The translations under genes were made by a program, and so were the position numbers. DNA of 45,911 bases from Elusimicrobiota bacterium (lineage in GTDB: Bacteria > CAYTYR01 > UBA6262), in NCBI GenBank assembly GCA_003153935.1, contig PMCA01000007.1, positions 11,918-57,828 of the forward strand, given 5' to 3'. The notes beneath the pieces were generated by a model that made no database searches, was not told the origin of the DNA, and worked only from the letters and a program-made list of their open reading frames with translations. Of this stretch, positions 37,413 through 45,911 are shown piece by piece; the first letter of the stretch is position 1; each line of letters starts with the position of its first letter.

Positions 37413-38675
37413 CTATTTAACCGTCTCTTTTTCCAGGGTGACTGGCGCCGGCGCAGTTATCTCCTGTATCTCGGTGGGCAGGCCCATTTTATCCAATAAT
37501 TCCAGGAATGGATCAGGGTCCAACTCTTCGACATTTACCATGGTTTTCACGTCCCAGGTGCCCTTGGAGATGAGTATGGCCGCGGCGATGGGCGGCACAC
37601 CAGCGGTGTAGCTGATGGCCTGCGATTCCACTTCATTGTAACACTCCGCGTGATCACAGATGTTATAAATAAAAACCTCTTTCGGCATGTCGTTTTTGGT
37701 GCCTTTGATCAGGTTCCCGATGCAGGTCTTGCCGGAGTAATTCTTCGCCAGGGAACCCGGGTCAGGCAGGACGGCCTTGACCACCTTGAGCGGGATGACC
37801 TCCAGGCCCTCGGCGGTTTTGACTGATTTCTCCGAGATCAGTCCCAGTTTGGAAAGTACCGTGAAAACGTTTATATAATGATCGCTGAAGCCCATCCAGA
37901 AGCGGATGCTGTTGGCGTCGATGTTCTTGGACAGGGAATGCAGTTCGTCATGGCCGGTCAGGTAAACCGTCTGTTTGCCGACTACCGGGAAGTCATATAT
38001 CCTTTTGGTGGTATGGACTTTCTTCTCCACCCATTTCCGGTCGATGAAGGTCCAGACTTTCTTGAATTCCCGGAAATTTATTTCCGGGTCGAAGTTGGTG
38101 GCGAAATACTTGCCGTGGTTACCGGCGTTAACATCCATGATATCGATGGTGTCGATGGTGTCAAAGAGATGCTTGACCGCGTAAGAACAATACGCGTTGA
38201 CTATGCCGGGGTCAAAGCCGCAGCCCAGCACCGCCGTTATGCCGTTCTCGTGGCAGCGGTCCATCCTCTGCCATTCGTAGTTGCCGTACCAGGGTGGATC
38301 CTCGCAAACCTTGCCCGGTTCCTCATGGATGGCGGTATCCATGTAAGCGACACCGGCCTGGATGCAGGCTTCCAGCACGGACATGTTTATAAAGGAAATA
38401 CCCAGATTGATCACTATCTGGGAATTCGTTTCTTTGATCAGGCTAACTAGCGCCGGTACGTCCATGGCGTCCACCTGGCGAGAGTATAACTTCTTGGTTT
38501 TATCCTTGAGGCTGTCCTTTTTCTTGATGCTTTCGATTATCTTGTCGCATTTTTTTACGGTCCGTGAAGCGATACAGATATCGCCCAAAATGTCATTGTT
38601 CTGCGCGGCTTTATGAGCGGCTACATGAGCCACTCCGCCGGCGCCGATGATCAACACATTTTTTTTCTTTTTCAT
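37413..38675 (-). CDS. Carboxy(nor)spermidine dehydrogenase, saccharopine dehydrogenase family
   Basis: The 420-residue enzyme has an N-terminal NAD(P) loop (VLIIGAGGVAHVAAHKAAQ) and the saccharopine-dehydrogenase-like fold, with VLGCGFDPGIVNAYCSYA and SYTAGVPPIAAAILI. It matches the carboxynorspermidine/carboxyspermidine synthase group, which condenses a diamine with L-aspartate semialdehyde and reduces the imine with NADPH. The decarboxylase that acts next is encoded directly upstream, 16 bases away. A GGAGGG site precedes the ATG. The amine acceptor (putrescine, diaminopropane or agmatine) cannot be read from the sequence. Confidence 0.9.
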   Translation of the reverse strand: MKKKKNVLIIGAGGVAHVAAHKAAQNNDILGDICIASRTVKKCDKIIESIKKKDSLKDKTKKLYSRQVDAMDVPALVSLIKETNSQIVINLGISFINMSVLEACIQAGVAYMDTAIHEEPGKVCEDPPWYGNYEWQRMDRCHENGITAVLGCGFDPGIVNAYCSYAVKHLFDTIDTIDIMDVNAGNHGKYFATNFDPEINFREFKKVWTFIDRKWVEKKVHTTKRIYDFPVVGKQTVYLTGHDELHSLSKNIDANSIRFWMGFSDHYINVFTVLSKLGLISEKSVKTAEGLEVIPLKVVKAVLPDPGSLAKNYSGKTCIGNLIKGTKNDMPKEVFIYNICDHAECYNEVESQAISYTAGVPPIAAAILISKGTWDVKTMVNVEELDPDPFLELLDKMGLPTEIQEITAPAPVTLEKETVK

Positions 38676-38691
38676 GACAGGTTATACCCTC

Positions 38692-39795
38692 CTACGATAG
38701 ACTTTCTAAGAAATCCTTATAGGCGAAATGACGGACCTCTTTGATGGCGCCACCCAGTTGTTTTACGACTATTGCGGGCATGGCCAGGCCGTTAAACCAG
38801 TTCTTCTTGACCATAGTATAACCGGCAGCGTCGGATATCCTGAGCTCGCTGCCGATATGCAAAGGTTTCTTGAATTTGTAGGTCCCGAACACGTCCCCGG
38901 CCAGGCAAGAACGGCCGGCGATCATATATTTATGCTTTCCCTGCCCTGCCGCCTCTATCTTAGCCGGCGTGCGGTATATCAACAGGTCCAGCATGTGCGC
39001 CTCCGTGGAAGCGTCGACGATGGCTATGTCAATTTCATTATGGATGATATCCACTACCGTGGTGACCAGCTCTGCGGAGCGGGTAATGGCTGTTTCTCCT
39101 GGTTCCAGGTAGATCTGGACAGCAAAACGTTCACTGAACTCTTTCAGCTTACGGCAAAACTTGTCCAGCGGGTAACCATCCTGGGTGAAATATAATCCTC
39201 CGCCCAGGCTGACCCACTCCAGCTTCTCCAGGATTGGGCCATAATCATGGCCTATCCTATCTAGGTTAGAGACGAAGTTTGCGCAATCGTTATTCTCACA
39301 GTTGAAATGGAACATCGCTCCGCTGATCAAAGGGAGCGCCCTGGTTAATTCTTTCCGGTCGCTCACCCCCAGGCGGGAGAATTTCCGGGCCGGGTCGGCG
39401 AGATCAAAATGCGAATAACTGAAACCGGGGTTTATTCTTAGTCCAACTTTCAAAGAACCAGCCTGCCGGTGGAACCGTTTTAATTGCGATACTGAATTAA
39501 AGATTATTTTATCCGCGTAGCGTTTGACCGCTTTCACTTCAGCAGCGGAATACCCTACGCAATAAGCATGGGTTTCGCCGCCGAATTTATCCCGGCCCAG
39601 CCGCGCTTCGAACAAAGAACTGCTGGTGGTACCGTCGAGATATGACCTCATCAGGGGGAAAACGCTCCAGGTGGAAAAGCATTTCAGGGCCAGCACGACC
39701 TTAACGCTCGCCCGCTCCCGGACATGCTTAATTATCTTGAGATTCTGCAGTAATTTATTTTCATCAACCAAATAATACGGCGTGCTTAATTTCAT
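38692..39795 (-). CDS. nspC: Carboxy(nor)spermidine decarboxylase
   Basis: The 367-residue fold-III PLP enzyme belongs to the NspC branch of the alanine-racemase fold. It begins TPYYLVDENKL, has the PLP lysine Lys38 in LALKCFSTW, the glycine-rich phosphate site WVSLGGGLYF, YLEPGE, and the dimer-interface active-site cysteine in GRSCLAGDVFG. It removes the carboxyl group of carboxyspermidine or carboxynorspermidine, completing triamine synthesis. It has no ribosome binding site; the -10 box ends seven bases before the ATG, so the mRNA is probably leaderless. Confidence 0.92.
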   Translation of the reverse strand: MKLSTPYYLVDENKLLQNLKIIKHVRERASVKVVLALKCFSTWSVFPLMRSYLDGTTSSSLFEARLGRDKFGGETHAYCVGYSAAEVKAVKRYADKIIFNSVSQLKRFHRQAGSLKVGLRINPGFSYSHFDLADPARKFSRLGVSDRKELTRALPLISGAMFHFNCENNDCANFVSNLDRIGHDYGPILEKLEWVSLGGGLYFTQDGYPLDKFCRKLKEFSERFAVQIYLEPGETAITRSAELVTTVVDIIHNEIDIAIVDASTEAHMLDLLIYRTPAKIEAAGQGKHKYMIAGRSCLAGDVFGTYKFKKPLHIGSELRISDAAGYTMVKKNWFNGLAMPAIVVKQLGGAIKEVRHFAYKDFLESLS

Positions 39796-39843: not shown

Positions 39844-41781
39844 TCAATCGTTAAAGGGCAGATTTATCCGGAACCAGTAGGACCGGCCGGGCAGCGGGAA
39901 GAAGTTCCCGAAGCCATCGGTGCGGCTCGCATAGCGCCGGTTAAACAAGTCTTCGACGGTAAAGAACAGAGTGGCATTGTTAACTTTCTTGGCCAGGGTG
40001 GCGTTCCAGATATTGGACGAAGGCACCTTGGTCCCCTGTTCGCCGTTCTGCTCATAGCTTTCGCTGACCCACTGGTCGGTCAGGCTTATCTTGAATGTAT
40101 TTTTCGGAGTGAAATCCAGCGTGTAGTTCAGCTTATGCCTGGGATGAAAGGCCAGCAGTAAATAATCCGGATCATTATCTTTCTTGCCGGTCGCTTGGGA
40201 CGCTGTATAGTTCAGGTTGTGGCTCAGCATCCGGGTCAAAGTTTGCGCCACTTCCACTTCCGCTCCCAGGTTCCTGGCGCTGGCGATATTCTGCGGGGCG
40301 GTCCGGTTAGTTGTTAAAGTTATCATATCAGACTGCCAGACGATCAGGTCCGTACTGTTTATGTAAAAAACAGTCAACTTGCCCGTTAATTTCTCTCCGT
40401 AATTGAATTCCGCACCCGCATCATAAGAAACGGCTGTTTCGGGCCTGAGATTCCTGTTCCCCTGAGTTACATAGGTAGTGCCAAAGAAGGATTCTTCCTG
40501 GCGGGGCCAGAACAGGTCATTCAAAGTTGGCGGACGGAAGCCGCGCGCTACATTGAAGGATGCTTTCCACTCAGGATTAAGTTTGTAGGTCAACCCGAGG
40601 CGAGGATCAAATTGTCCACCCGATATGGAATGATGGTCGTAGCGGGCGCCCAGGGAAAGTACCAGCGGGTCCTGTTCGCTGGTGTACTCGGCATAGAGGG
40701 AATTAAGTGTCGCGGCTTCATCTATAACGTCAACTTGCTGGTCGTTATTAGTATACATCAGCTTGTCCAGGCGATACTCGTAACCCGCGGTCAGTTCCGG
40801 GGTAAGGTTGACCCGTCCGTTAATTCCGTCGGTATAAGTGAGGTACGAATTATCTATGCTGAAATCAACGTTGCGGTAAACCTGGTTGGCCTGGCGATAA
40901 TAGGTCTTGACCTGGACGGCCGTATCCGTCGATATTTTGAGATCATATACCAGGGAGAGCAGATTATTGTGGTCCTCCTGCCGGGCGTTGGGTGAAGATG
41001 ATTCCCTTTCCGCGGAGTTATTCCACTGGTCTATCGGTATATTACTGGGTCCGGGTATCCCCAGTTGTCCGCGGAAATATTCATCTTGAAGAATTAACTG
41101 CCCCATTTCTGCCAGGTCATAACCCAACCGCAGTCCCATGGTGTCATTATCATAGTCGTTATTTTTCCGCCATCCGTCGGCGTACGAACGGCCGCCGGAC
41201 ACCTGGTAATCAAATCGGCCAGGTTTGGCGCCGAAACAAAAACTATAGGTCTTGGTGTTGAAACTGCCGATATAAACATCTATATCCGTAACCGGCGCTT
41301 TTTCCACCGGTTTCCTGGTAATAATGTTCACTACGCCGCCCATGGCGTTGGCGCCATATAGCGCTGACGCGGCGCCGCGGATAACTTCTATTCTTTCAAT
41401 ATTTTCCTTAGGTACCTGAGATATATCCGCTAAACCCAGGGATGGTGAATTGACCGGTGTCCCGTCCACCAAAATTAATACCTGCTGGGCCGGTACGCCG
41501 CGTATCGACAACGATTCGGCATTGCCAAGCCCTGCCTGCCGGGGAATGTTAAGACCGGCCAGGGCATCCAGTATCTGTCCCACATCCTGAGTATCGGCTT
41601 TCATAAGCTGGTCACTGTCGATAACAGTGACATTGGTTCCGCTATTGGTAATAGCCAGAGGTTTCAGGCTGGCGGAGATGACCATGGTGTTCAGGTTGAC
41701 CTCCGCGCCCTCCTGGGCTAAAGCCAGGCTGGCGGGAATTAGCCAGGCCCAGATCAACAGAATAACTGTTTTCTTTTTCAT
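39844..41781 (-). CDS. btuB: TonB-dependent receptor, BtuB-like
   Basis: The 645-residue outer-membrane protein has a signal peptide (MKKKTVILLIWAWLIPASLALAQ), a TonB-box-like MVISAS segment, an N-terminal plug domain (about 45-160) with GLNIPRQAGLGNAESLSIRG and RIEVIRGAASALYGANAMGG, and a barrel ending in the ordinary receptor C-terminal motif LFNRRYASRTDGFGNFFPLPGRSYWF. It imports a large ligand with TonB energy. The B12 riboswitch and the btuFCD genes upstream point to cobalamin or another corrinoid. The ATG at 41781 is preferred; a GTG at 41787 overlaps the btuD stop. No TonB or ExbBD gene is in the window. Confidence 0.9.
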   Translation of the reverse strand: MKKKTVILLIWAWLIPASLALAQEGAEVNLNTMVISASLKPLAITNSGTNVTVIDSDQLMKADTQDVGQILDALAGLNIPRQAGLGNAESLSIRGVPAQQVLILVDGTPVNSPSLGLADISQVPKENIERIEVIRGAASALYGANAMGGVVNIITRKPVEKAPVTDIDVYIGSFNTKTYSFCFGAKPGRFDYQVSGGRSYADGWRKNNDYDNDTMGLRLGYDLAEMGQLILQDEYFRGQLGIPGPSNIPIDQWNNSAERESSSPNARQEDHNNLLSLVYDLKISTDTAVQVKTYYRQANQVYRNVDFSIDNSYLTYTDGINGRVNLTPELTAGYEYRLDKLMYTNNDQQVDVIDEAATLNSLYAEYTSEQDPLVLSLGARYDHHSISGGQFDPRLGLTYKLNPEWKASFNVARGFRPPTLNDLFWPRQEESFFGTTYVTQGNRNLRPETAVSYDAGAEFNYGEKLTGKLTVFYINSTDLIVWQSDMITLTTNRTAPQNIASARNLGAEVEVAQTLTRMLSHNLNYTASQATGKKDNDPDYLLLAFHPRHKLNYTLDFTPKNTFKISLTDQWVSESYEQNGEQGTKVPSSNIWNATLAKKVNNATLFFTVEDLFNRRYASRTDGFGNFFPLPGRSYWFRINLPFND

Positions 41782-41783
41782 GT

Positions 41784-42572
41784 TCACACTGCTCCTTTTG
41801 GTATTAGGCTTATTTGCGGTTTATTGGTTGCCTGGTTCACGGAAACCTGTACGCGATTCCGGTAAACGTCTTGCAGTATCTTTGGCGTAATGACTTCAGC
41901 GGGAGCGCCGTGGGCGAATATCCGGCCCGCCCGCAGTAATAAAAGTTTCTCGCAGTATAAAGAAGCCAGGTTCAGATCGTGGCTGACGACGATTATGGTG
42001 AGGCCATTCTTGGCCTGCTGGTGGAGCAACAGATCGAATATTTCCGTCTGGTAATTTATATCCAGGTGCGCGGTCGGTTCATCCAGGAGCATGATCCGGG
42101 GTTGCTGGGCCAGGGCTTGAGCGATAAAAACCCTCTGCCGTTCTCCTGAAGAGAGTTCATTAATGAAATGGTCTTTAAGTCCCTTGACTCCGGTTTCAAC
42201 CATGGCCAGATCTACGGCCTCCCGGTCGGCCAGGGTCAGGGACGACATGAACGAACGGTGTGGCGCCCTTCCCATCATCACCAGTTGCTCTACGGTGAAA
42301 GGAAAAGTGACCAGGGTTTCTTCGGGCACTACCGCTATCATCCTGGCCAATTCCCGGGGCGAACAGGAAGATATCGGGCGCTGGTTGATCTTTACCTGGC
42401 CCTCACGTGTTTTAAGCAGGCCGGCCAATATGCGCAGCAAAGTGGATTTACCGCTGCCATTGGGTCCGATGATGCCCAGGATGTTTCCCGGCTCAACGTT
42501 GAAACTTATCCCAGCCAGCACCGGGTTGTTTTCGTAAGCAAAATAAATATCAGCTACTTCTATCAGACTCAT
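41784..42572 (-). CDS. btuD: Corrinoid ABC transporter ATPase
   Basis: The 262-residue ATPase of the FecCD/BtuCD importer class has Walker A GPNGSGKSTLL (36-46), a Q-loop near VVPEETLVTFP, the signature LSSGERQRVFIAQAL, Walker B IMLLDEPTAHLD and the switch histidine in VVSHDLN. It powers import through BtuC. Its ATG directly follows the btuC stop codon, and the receptor gene follows. An iron-siderophore role would look the same by sequence; the riboswitch decides for corrinoid. Confidence 0.93.
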   Translation of the reverse strand: MSLIEVADIYFAYENNPVLAGISFNVEPGNILGIIGPNGSGKSTLLRILAGLLKTREGQVKINQRPISSCSPRELARMIAVVPEETLVTFPFTVEQLVMMGRAPHRSFMSSLTLADREAVDLAMVETGVKGLKDHFINELSSGERQRVFIAQALAQQPRIMLLDEPTAHLDINYQTEIFDLLLHQQAKNGLTIIVVSHDLNLASLYCEKLLLLRAGRIFAHGAPAEVITPKILQDVYRNRVQVSVNQATNKPQISLIPKGAV

Positions 42573-43553
42573 TTAAACCTCGGTTATGATCTGGCTCTTC
42601 TTGCGCCGCAGCAGGTACAGGAAAAACGGCGCGCCAAACAAGGCGGTAACCACGCCGATTGGGATCTCCAGCGGGGCCGCAGCCGTCCGGGCCAGGCCAT
42701 CGCATAACAGGACGAAAATAGCGCCCAGGATGGCAGCGGTCGGCATTAACACTTTATGATCCGGGCCAACCAGCAGACGGGCCATGTGCGGGATGATAAG
42801 ACCGACAAAGCCGATCATACCGCAAACGGAAACAAGCAGGGCGATAATTACCGAGACAATGATAAAAAGCAGTCTCTTGGTCAGTTCCACGTTCACTCCC
42901 AGGGTCTGCGCTTTCTCTTCCCCCAGGGTAATAATATTGAGCTGGTCGCTGAAAAAATAAACGGCCAGGCAGGATAACGTGGTGATCGCGCCGGTAAACA
43001 GGATCAGTTTCATATCCGTTTGTCCCAGGCTGCCCATGATCCAGAATATCACTTCATAGAGCTCTTTATGGTTCAGCGTGACCAGCAGGGTGATCAGGCC
43101 GGATAGGAAAGTATTGACGATAACTCCGGCCAGCAGCAAGGTTTGTACCGGCATCTTGCCGTCGAGTTGGGCCATCTGGTACACCAAGACCAGGCTCAAT
43201 AAGGCGCAAACGAAAGCCAGGGCCGGCAGGCTGTAAAAGAAACCGCCCAGCCCCAGGATCAATGCCAGGGCACCGCCCAGAGCCGCACCCGAGGAAGTTC
43301 CCAGGATGTAGGGATCGGCCAGGGGATTACGCAGGATGGCCTGGAACGCCACGCCGCTGACGCTTAAACCAGTGCCAACGAAAATAGCCAGCAGGATGCG
43401 CGGCAGGCGGATCTTATACAGGATCAGCCGTGAGGTTTCGTCCCCTCCGCTGAACGGATTGATCCAGATAACCCCCCAGTACAATGACAGGTAAGCGATC
43501 GCCAGTAATAGCAATAAGGACAGCATCAGGTTTATTTTGGCTTTAGTTCTCAT
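42573..43553 (-). CDS. btuC: Corrinoid ABC transporter permease
   Basis: The 326-residue permease of the FecCD family has about ten membrane segments with family blocks RLPRILLAIFVGTGLSVSGVAFQAILRNPLADPYILGTSSGAALG and CGMIGFVGLIIPHMARLLVGPDH (the ATPase-contact loop), and ends near GAPFFLYLLRR. It forms a dimer in the inner membrane. Its start overlaps the btuF stop by four bases, and btuD begins at its stop. Confidence 0.94.
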   Translation of the reverse strand: MRTKAKINLMLSLLLLLAIAYLSLYWGVIWINPFSGGDETSRLILYKIRLPRILLAIFVGTGLSVSGVAFQAILRNPLADPYILGTSSGAALGGALALILGLGGFFYSLPALAFVCALLSLVLVYQMAQLDGKMPVQTLLLAGVIVNTFLSGLITLLVTLNHKELYEVIFWIMGSLGQTDMKLILFTGAITTLSCLAVYFFSDQLNIITLGEEKAQTLGVNVELTKRLLFIIVSVIIALLVSVCGMIGFVGLIIPHMARLLVGPDHKVLMPTAAILGAIFVLLCDGLARTAAAPLEIPIGVVTALFGAPFFLYLLRRKKSQIITEV

Positions 43554-44389
43554 CTGCTTTTTATCCCGTAGATCTTATCAGCGAGTTGTTCCAGTCCGTC
43601 TACCAGTCGCGGCCCCGGCCGCATTAGCAGGTCGGGGTCAATATCGTCGATAATTTGTTTTTTGGCCACCGCGGATACTTTGGCGAAAACAGGATTCTTT
43701 AGGAAATAATCCCTGGCCCCGGGAGAACTGAGGACCAGCCATTCCGGATCCTGTTCAAGAATAAATTCCTGGTTGACCCGGCAATAGGCTCGTGGCAATG
43801 TCGAACCGATGTTAATAGCCCGGAGCATATTCATCATCTCCGCGATAAAAGATCCCGGCCCCACGGTCATAAGCGGTTGTAACGATATCTCCATAAATAT
43901 CCTGGGTGGTTTGGTACCACGTTCGCTGATTTTCCTGTTCACATCGCTTATTCTGGCCAGCAGGGATTGGTTGAGGATGTAAGCATAGGTTGAGGTGCCT
44001 GTAAGTTTGCCGATCTGGCTTATATTGTCGAAAAGCTGCTGGAAATTATGCGGGTCCACCACCACCACGTTTAACCCGAGCCGTCGCAGGGAATTTACTG
44101 CGGGATCCTGTTCCAGCCCGGTAGCCAGCACCAGGTCTGGCTTCAGGGACACGATCTTCTCAATACTGGGGCTGGTGAAATCCCCGATCTTTTCTTTCTG
44201 CCTGGCCTGGGGCGGATAGTTGCAGTAACTGGTGACCCCTACTATTTTATCGCCCAGGTTCAGGGCGTAGAGAATTTCGGTATTGGCCGGCGCCAGCGAG
44301 ACTATCCTCTGCGGATAATTATCAGCCGCCTGACCGGTGGCTGGGATCACGGCCAGCAAAAATATTAATAATAAAAGTCTTGTTCTCAT
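43550..44389 (-). CDS. btuF: Corrinoid-binding periplasmic protein
   Basis: The 279-residue protein has a signal peptide (to about residue 21, QAA) and a class III binding-protein fold of two lobes joined by a helix. It begins PQRIVSLAPANTEILYALNLGDKIVGVTSYCNYPP, the typical BtuF opening, with DLVLATGLEQDP and LRRLGLNVVVVDPHNF following. It delivers corrinoid to BtuC. It overlaps btuC by four bases and lies eight bases after the 78-residue small gene. Confidence 0.92.
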   Translation of the reverse strand: MRTRLLLLIFLLAVIPATGQAADNYPQRIVSLAPANTEILYALNLGDKIVGVTSYCNYPPQARQKEKIGDFTSPSIEKIVSLKPDLVLATGLEQDPAVNSLRRLGLNVVVVDPHNFQQLFDNISQIGKLTGTSTYAYILNQSLLARISDVNRKISERGTKPPRIFMEISLQPLMTVGPGSFIAEMMNMLRAINIGSTLPRAYCRVNQEFILEQDPEWLVLSSPGARDYFLKNPVFAKVSAVAKKQIIDDIDPDLLMRPGPRLVDGLEQLADKIYGIKSR

Positions 44390-44397
44390 ATTAGTAT

Positions 44398-44634
44398 TCA
44401 GACGGCGTGCATCTCAATGCTGCGCGCGATGGCCTGGGCCTTGTCCGACCCCAAAAAGATGATCAGGGACTCCTGGATACTCTTCACCAGAACGGGCAGG
44501 TCGGCCGGGGATAGGTCCTCCGGCTTTCGGCCCATCACCGCACAATGGATCCTTACCGTAGCCGCAGCCATCTCTTCACCTTGCAGCGGGGATAGAATAT
44601 GCTGCACCCTTTTCATCAATTTGTTTTCAGGCAT
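44398..44634 (-). CDS. Small helical protein, paralogue of the 80-residue protein upstream of the riboswitch
   Basis: The 78-residue soluble protein is predicted to be all helix and has no cysteine pair or signal peptide. I do not recognise its family. It aligns along its whole length with the 80-residue protein at 45633-45875: shared positions include LxPLxGExMA, TVxxxC, MGxKPEdL, DLPxLxKxIE/Q and IIFLGSDKA. AGGAGC precedes the ATG. It lies between the membrane protein gene and btuF in the riboswitch-controlled operon, eight to nine bases from each, so a link to corrinoid supply is inferred. Confidence 0.8.
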   Translation of the reverse strand: MPENKLMKRVQHILSPLQGEEMAAATVRIHCAVMGRKPEDLSPADLPVLVKSIQESLIIFLGSDKAQAIARSIEMHAV

Positions 44635-44642
44635 AAACGCTC

Positions 44643-45437
44643 CTAAACGGATTCAATTAATTCCTTCTGGTACAAACCGCCAATGGCGACCAACAGGTAC
44701 CCCAGATTCCGGAAGACCTCCAGGAAATTACCCGAGCCGTACGTATTGTTCCAGCTTAGATAAGAATGCTCAATGGTAAAAATAGTCAGGCAGAGCAACC
44801 CCATCGCCAGGTAGCGCCAGGGACTCAGGATCCAAGCCTTTTTGTATAAACTGGAGATATAAACTAATAATGCGGCCGGGAAGGTAATGAGCAACCCGCC
44901 GGCGAAATAATAAATATATACGGATTTTGCCAGGTTGCCGGTATCAGCGTCCCGCAGAATAGACAGCAATAATTGATGGACAAACGTGAAGGCTATCAAG
45001 GATAAACCCAACAAGCCGAAGATAAAATTTCTCTTGCTGCCAAAAGAAAACCGGCTTTTCTTGTAGCCAAAGACCAGCATTAATAAACCGGCCAGGACCG
45101 GAATATAGGCGGTCATCCGGAAATAGTCGGCCAGGATCGGGAACCCGTCATTTACATCCCCATTCAAGATAATCTCCAGAAAACCGTTGATTGTCTCCGC
45201 ACAAAAAAACAATGTCACCCCGGTCAGGAGCAAGATCCAGGCCAGCCTGGCCCGGTTCCCTGTCCCAAAACTTCTTACGGCCAAAGCCGTTCCGCCCAAA
45301 GCCACTAGAGCGCATAGTATAGGCAGGATGTCGCTGACTATGGTCATAGCTTTGCCTTCCGGCTTAATCCAGAAGAAAAGGATATTAAAAATGATCAAGG
45401 CGATTGTAAAAATCCAGGTTCTCTGTGATGCCGGCAT
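44643..45437 (-). CDS. Multi-pass membrane protein resembling a 7TM sensor domain without an output domain
   Basis: The 264-residue protein has about eight hydrophobic segments (near 8-24, 34-54, 65-82, 105-124, 137-158, 172-194, 205-225 and 242-256). Blocks such as NDGFPILADYFRMTAYIPVLAGLL and the SYLSWNNTYGSGNFLEVFRNLGYLLVAIG ending resemble the N-terminal membrane sensor regions of some histidine kinases and diguanylate cyclases, but no kinase or cyclase follows. The ATG at 45437 has GAGAGG five bases upstream; a GTG at 45443 overlaps that site. It is the first gene after the cobalamin riboswitch. A paralogue ending KKELIDSV lies at the right edge. Confidence 0.8.
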   Translation of the reverse strand: MPASQRTWIFTIALIIFNILFFWIKPEGKAMTIVSDILPILCALVALGGTALAVRSFGTGNRARLAWILLLTGVTLFFCAETINGFLEIILNGDVNDGFPILADYFRMTAYIPVLAGLLMLVFGYKKSRFSFGSKRNFIFGLLGLSLIAFTFVHQLLLSILRDADTGNLAKSVYIYYFAGGLLITFPAALLVYISSLYKKAWILSPWRYLAMGLLCLTIFTIEHSYLSWNNTYGSGNFLEVFRNLGYLLVAIGGLYQKELIESV

Positions 45438-45456
45438 GTACACCTCTCTACTCTGT

Positions 45457-45485
45457 AAAAAAACTCAACCAAGGGAAAGGTTGAG
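45457..45485 (-). terminator. Terminator of the cobalamin riboswitch
   Basis: A 7-bp stem (CTCAACC at 45479-45485 read on the minus strand, with GGTTGAG at 45464-45470) and an 8-base loop are followed on the minus strand by seven T. It lies between the riboswitch core and the membrane protein start, as expected for control by premature termination when cobalamin is bound. Confidence 0.85.
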
Positions 45486-45544
45486 CATGAACCAGGTTTA
45501 TATGAAGCTTTCACCCGCCCTTCCCTCGAAGGAAATCTTCTATT

Positions 45545-45632
45545 TAGCAAGCAGGTAATCGGACTTGTTCCTCTTACGGAACACACCGTTGCGGGGCAGT
45601 GCCTGATTCACACAGGTCTTCCCCTGCTTGTT
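45545..45632 (-). promoter_or_regulatory. Cobalamin (AdoCbl-type) riboswitch
   Basis: Read on the minus strand, the RNA begins CAAGCAGGGGAAGACC, has GTGTGAATCAGGCACTG, then the conserved CCCCGCAAC core (45588-45599) and a B12-box-like AAGTCCGATTACCTGCTTGC (45547-45566). CAAGCAGG and CCTGCTTG pair perfectly to close the core. These elements in this order are diagnostic of cobalamin riboswitches. It directly follows the stop of the 80-residue gene and precedes a terminator and the membrane protein-btuFCD-btuB operon. Confidence 0.92.
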
Positions 45633-45875
45633 CTATGAATTGATCCTGACTATACTTTGGGATAGTTCCTTGGCTTTATCGGAACCGAGAAAAATGATCA
45701 CGGCTCTTTCAATATTCTTCGCCAGCGTCGGCAGGTCGGGATATCCTAATTCCTCCGGCTTAATGCCCATTTTGGAGCATTGCAGTTTCACCGTCGTTAT
45801 GGCCATTAGTTCGCCTAACAACGGGGTCAGGACTATCTCTATTCTTCTAGCTAAACTGTCAGTCATATTATTCAT
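45633..45875 (-). CDS. Small helical protein, first paralogue
   Basis: The 80-residue protein is predicted to be helical, soluble and without a signal peptide; its family is not recognised. It is a clear paralogue of the 78-residue protein at 44398-44634, sharing the LTPLLGELMA, MGIKPEEL, DLPTLAKNIE and IIFLGSDKA regions. GAGAG five bases before the ATG supports the start. It begins nine bases after the stop of a truncated membrane protein gene, the same order and spacing as the downstream pair. The riboswitch begins right after its stop. Confidence 0.8.
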   Translation of the reverse strand: MNNMTDSLARRIEIVLTPLLGELMAITTVKLQCSKMGIKPEELGYPDLPTLAKNIERAVIIFLGSDKAKELSQSIVRINS

Positions 45876-45884
45876 ATTTTCTCT

Positions 45885-45911
45885 CTAAACCGAATCTATA
45901 AGTTCTTTTTT
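45885..45911 (-). CDS. C-terminal end of a paralogue of the sensor-like membrane protein (cut by the right edge)
   Basis: The minus-strand frame entering the window encodes KKELIDSV and a TAG stop. The membrane protein at 44643-45437 ends QKELIESV. Together with the small gene that follows each of them at nearly the same distance, this shows the end of a second copy of the membrane protein. Only eight residues are seen. Confidence 0.65.
   Translation of the reverse strand, partial: KKELIDSV

Follow-up and report, generated by a model that had tools for sequence, protein, structure and literature searches.

A conserved gene pair for an eight-helix membrane protein and a small four-helix protein, with one copy behind a cobalamin riboswitch

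In the genome of an Elusimicrobiota bacterium, genes for a multi-pass membrane protein (M) and a small helical protein (S) lie side by side, more than once, next to genes for corrinoid uptake. This raises the question of whether the two proteins act together, in what process, and whether their position beside the btu genes reflects their function. We analysed a window of 45,911 nucleotides, the whole stretch of DNA under study (G000:C17:11918-57828), together with its source genome (G000, 1.75 Mb in 36 contigs). Comparisons covered four other genomes of the same class (G001 to G004), a profile search of 386 genomes, and 14 genomes of a second phylum-level group; outside the two groups that hold the pair, sampling extended to only about 400 genomes. 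A literature search found no published work on the pair.

Three gene pairs beside a corrinoid uptake operon

In order of transcription on the minus strand, the locus reads PhoH, PHP, PilZ, M3, S3, M2, S2, riboswitch, terminator hairpin, M1, S1, btuF, btuC, btuD, btuB. At the right edge of the window lies the 3' end of M2 (45876..45911), an eight-TM membrane protein whose gene runs on past the window (G000:C17:57830-58600), followed by its partner S2, of 80 residues (45633..45875). The last 12 nt of S2 are overlapped by the 5' end of an AdoCbl riboswitch (45501..45644; RF01482, 60.8 bits against a gathering score of 50, E 7.5e-9), and its terminator-like hairpin of 8 pairs and a T run (45463..45486) ends 20 nt ahead of the GTG start codon of M1. 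M1 (44643..45443) is a sensor-like protein of eight TM helices with 266 residues from the GTG at 45443, or 264 from the ATG at 45437. S1, of 78 residues (44398..44634), follows after a gap of 8 nt, and another gap of 8 nt separates S1 from btuF.

The genes downstream of M1-S1 form an ordinary btuFCD and TonB receptor set, all on the minus strand: a btuF-like periplasmic binding protein (43550..44389; Peripla_BP_2, E 3.1e-33), a btuC-like FecCD permease (42573..43553; E 4.8e-91), a btuD-like ABC ATPase (41784..42572; E 2.3e-33) and a btuB-like TonB-dependent receptor (39844..41787; E 1e-43, with the plug at E 1.3e-25). The first-pass annotation had placed one pair under a cobalamin riboswitch at the head of btuFCD-btuB and another upstream of that riboswitch, and both placements hold.

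The same annotation counted two consecutive pairs of a multi-pass membrane protein and a helical protein of 78-80 residues, and this number was too low. When the contig was extended to the right, the edge gene M2 proved homologous to M1 over its length (residues 6-260, 42% identity, E 1.5e-62), and a third pair, M3-S3, was found directly beyond the window edge, past M2. Within the source genome the third copies are more distant (M3, 28% identity, E 4.9e-31; S3, 33% identity, E 3.9e-10) and S1 matches S2 at E 1e-18, similarities between copies that are far above chance for both proteins. The M-S unit is triplicated in this genome. Just past the right edge of the window, where M2 has its 3' end, an assembly join is marked by two N (L004 2830-2831), and beyond them another reading frame gives the expected family ending KELIDSV. 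The G+C content of S1 is 56.5%, against 44-46% in S2 and S3.

Joint occurrence of M and S in distant bacteria

An S gene adjoined an M gene in all 14 of the cases found, which come from two distant phylum-level groups. In the class of the source genome, G001 holds two pairs, and G002, G003 and G004 hold one each. The S profile search of 386 genomes added G148 and G285, which belong to the other phylum-level group, and there too S lay next to M. Within this second phylum, S occurs in 5 of 14 genomes as six copies, each of them beside M; M occurs in exactly the same five genomes, and both are absent from the same nine. Across the 386 genomes sampled, the seven with a clear S are the seven with a close M. 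Among the genomes that hold a pair, one lone M turned up (L071, G148:C72), and it is strongly diverged, matching at E 1.5e-24 compared with 6.5e-88 or better for the paired M proteins of the second phylum.

In the home family M precedes S, and in G004 and the second phylum S precedes M. Since the order differs between groups, the neighbourhood is more than inherited synteny. In both the M tree and the S tree, the type-3 pairs of G000 and G001 form one clade with high support, which indicates that the pairs duplicate as units; the branching order of the other copies is unsettled in both trees. Constant neighbours in two distant bacterial groups, M and S are probably partners, and from this genome comparison we regard their co-inherited partnership as real and well supported. 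The small protein had been put forward as a candidate partner of the membrane protein, with chance as the alternative; the joint occurrence across genomes bears out the former and speaks against a chance arrangement.

A query of the collection with the consensus S recovered three relatives only, all already found by the genome search. Matches to S at E 0.001 to 0.1 in other genomes came mostly from short fragments of long frames, and we attributed them to chance. One protein with an S-like C-terminal stretch (G134; L038 1060-1674) reached E 3.4e-4 in the genome search, and its gene directly precedes one resembling V-type ATPase subunit F.

M and S thus represent two co-inherited protein families of distant bacteria, neither of which has an entry in Pfam or NCBIfam. 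Strict pairing in both gene orders fits an obligate complex as well as it fits a sensor. The main alternative to a signalling role, and in our view a somewhat unlikely alternative, is accordingly that S is a structural or assembly subunit of M in a small membrane complex, such as a transporter, a channel or a membrane enzyme, with an activity other than signalling. That S carries no known output domain would suit such a subunit, and the relatives of M described below bear on the same point.

Relatives of M and the nature of S

M has eight predicted membrane helices and a short tail, with moderate model confidence (pLDDT 73.8). Its loop charges show a positive-inside bias, with a summed K+R that averages 9.1 for the even loops plus ends and 3.1 for the odd loops, from which both ends are predicted to be cytoplasmic (N-in/C-in). 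Conserved acidic and aromatic residues lie mostly toward the outer half of the bilayer, at depths inferred from the model; many conserved positions (P102, D106, Y179-P180, D183, Y228 and Y235 in M1 numbering) would be in or near outer loops or outer helix halves. No Pfam or NCBIfam match was found for M, hence no output domain and no transporter family, and neither database gave a kinase or receiver domain in M or S. Fold comparison of M returned weak matches to seven-helix receptors only, which at a TM-score of about 0.4 and an rmsd near 10 are not meaningful. A phage or defence origin of the pair was dropped, as PHROGs and PADLOC gave no credible match.

The M profile matches the N-terminal membrane parts of larger proteins (L072, E 6.5e-28; L075, E 7.5e-16; L067, E 4.5e-9), each of which carries a GGDEF domain. 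L072 was confirmed as an M-GGDEF-EAL protein, and the conserved residues of M are the same there. M is thereby a relative of the membrane modules found in GGDEF-EAL and GGDEF proteins. These modules, which share the conserved residues of M, gave no match to a Pfam model; they are fused to their output enzyme, whereas M stands alone with S encoded beside it. The first-pass annotation had likened M to the membrane part of sensor kinases without an output domain. Because the M profile finds membrane parts of signalling enzymes, this sensor-like impression was right, as was the lack of an output domain; as fused outputs, however, c-di-GMP enzymes were confirmed and histidine kinases were not. In G376, three M matches lie within 6 kb (G376:C1:2554525-2560067; L072, L076, L077) in frames of 781-838 aa, which suggests a tandem family of M-GGDEF-EAL enzymes.

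MASE1-type domains are multi-pass integral membrane input modules of c-di-GMP enzymes. M is also multi-pass, but it has no Pfam match to any MASE model and is a stand-alone protein. Work on MASE1 has been published (PMC3718329).

Some relatives of M also stand alone. The lone M relative in L062 adjoins a DUF4388 (PATAN) protein (Pfam E 1.7e-14), and a lone M lies beside a DUF4388-type protein in L064 as well, by similarity to L062, with L058 a weak case. These loci are like M-S in that a stand-alone membrane protein is encoded next to a separate cytosolic protein, but the partner differs, and S has no similarity to it: the S profile gave no match to the partner proteins in L058, L062 and L064. 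An origin of S as the C-terminal part of PATAN proteins had been suggested by eye and was rejected when the S profile gave no match. DUF4388 was found in none of the seven genomes with S. In L065 (G327) and L066 (G051), a lone M relative follows the same conserved protein of about 220-240 aa, another possible partner.

S, of about 78 residues, is confidently modelled as four helices (AF2, pLDDT 89.5), and two glycines and a cysteine are invariant in its family. It has no sequence match in Pfam, NCBIfam or the PDB, and no convincing fold relative in the PDB, the best being 2hjm at a probability of 0.33. With no known relative and no fold match, an output role for S is a guess.

In the home family the pair usually occurs with a gene for a PilZ protein (Pfam E 1.9e-13) in which the RxxxR and DxSxxG motifs are present on reading of the sequence. 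The PilZ gene immediately precedes M in G000, G001 and G003, three of the family's four genomes, and overlaps M3 by 4 nt in G000 and G001; the pairs of G002 and G004 have no PilZ gene next to them. In the second phylum, where mostly short flanks were read, the pair had no c-di-GMP gene as a neighbour. All seven relevant genomes tested have six to thirteen GGDEF matches, and such proteins are common.

From these data we propose, with about an even chance of being right, that M and S together make up a split membrane sensor, in which S is a separate output or adaptor that possibly feeds c-di-GMP signalling. M would be the membrane input module, with eight TM helices and without an output domain of its own. 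S, which would be cytosolic, most likely binds the cytoplasmic face of M and passes the signal on, or else serves as a scaffold between M and another partner. For this lineage, c-di-GMP signalling is a plausible source of such a partner, since a PilZ gene with an intact binding motif is usually directly upstream of M; the fused relatives of M and the PilZ gene together suggest the connection. The same fusions to GGDEF-EAL and GGDEF domains, which point to sensing, argue against S as a mere subunit of a membrane complex, as does the lack of a match between M and any transporter family in Pfam or NCBIfam. If M needs S, the split sensor would show how an input module that is elsewhere fused to c-di-GMP enzymes works with a separate small output, and M-S would offer a minimal sensor-adaptor pair for study.

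Gene order around the riboswitch in related genomes

We compared the position of the pair relative to the riboswitch within the home family. G001 and G003 carry PilZ, the M-S pair or pairs, and then the riboswitch and btuF, and G002 carries M, S, the riboswitch and btuB. In all three, a promoter-like stretch, TTGACAATATTATT(A/G)TT, lies after S and before the riboswitch. By this shared stretch, the three sister genomes have a B12 unit of its own standing, and the pair lies upstream of it. G000 lacks the stretch before its riboswitch, and no promoter-like site was found within S2 on that strand. The terminator hairpin sequence is common to the window, G001 and G003. From the gene order, the riboswitch of G000 probably works by attenuation within a longer operon, in which M1-S1 follows the terminator and precedes btuF. 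Because the three sister genomes agree with each other, the arrangement in G000 would most simply be the derived one: the pair multiplied in tandem, and M1-S1 would have come to lie behind the B12 riboswitch that belongs to the adjacent btu operon. Between the riboswitch-terminator and btuF, and with gaps of only 8 nt, M1-S1 is probably co-transcribed with btuFCDB and should now be B12-repressible.

Such co-regulation speaks for M-S as a corrinoid sensor or an additional part of corrinoid uptake, as the first-pass annotation had allowed, and within one family, four genomes keep the pair next to the btu unit. Beyond that family the association was not seen. The short contig of G004 reads def-S-M and then a radical SAM gene and carries no btu gene, and none of the six second-phylum pairs has a btu neighbour in the stretches read. 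Inside the family, the three sister genomes keep the pair upstream of the riboswitch while the btu unit has its own conserved promoter-like site, and among the genomes examined a pair lies behind the riboswitch only in G000, as one of its three copies. M and S match no known Btu part. A corrinoid function as the general role of the pair was dropped on this comparative gene order, and we consider a corrinoid role for M-S very improbable. The adjacency to btu genes seems to have arisen by chance within a single lineage and not to reflect function.

The only copy under probable B12 control is also the one that has lost conserved residues, a further point against a corrinoid role. Of 19 positions that are nearly invariant in the family, M1 differs at 7 and every other member at 0-3, and this suggests that M1 may be decaying or re-tuned. 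M1-S1 could on this count be a decaying duplicate, held in frame only through its position in the btu leader, with M2-S2 and M3-S3 as the functional copies; this would be compatible with a split sensor. We nevertheless judge decay improbable, as both frames are intact and S1 departs from no conserved position. Re-tuning belongs to a wider and distinctly unlikely proposal, under which M-S would be an undescribed membrane signalling system of two proteins, found at low frequency among distant bacteria. M, as a stand-alone relative of the membrane module of c-di-GMP enzymes, would signal via a novel four-helix S with an invariant cysteine, and in this species a B12 riboswitch would have captured one copy, re-tuned so that corrinoid status is linked to the pathway. 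The locus itself provides a clear case of a gene pair that came to lie behind a riboswitch while its sister pairs stayed outside.

Two other features of the btu region were observed. In G002, a remnant of the start of btuF lies between the riboswitch and btuB (L017, about 10150-9985, minus strand) and reads AEEKLPERIISLAPANTEI; downstream lie cobalamin synthesis genes together with a full uptake set of the FecCD type. In the window, the region downstream of btuB (37413-39795) holds saccharopine-dehydrogenase-like and carboxynorspermidine-decarboxylase-like genes, named by reading of their sequences, and these hold the same place in G001 and G003.
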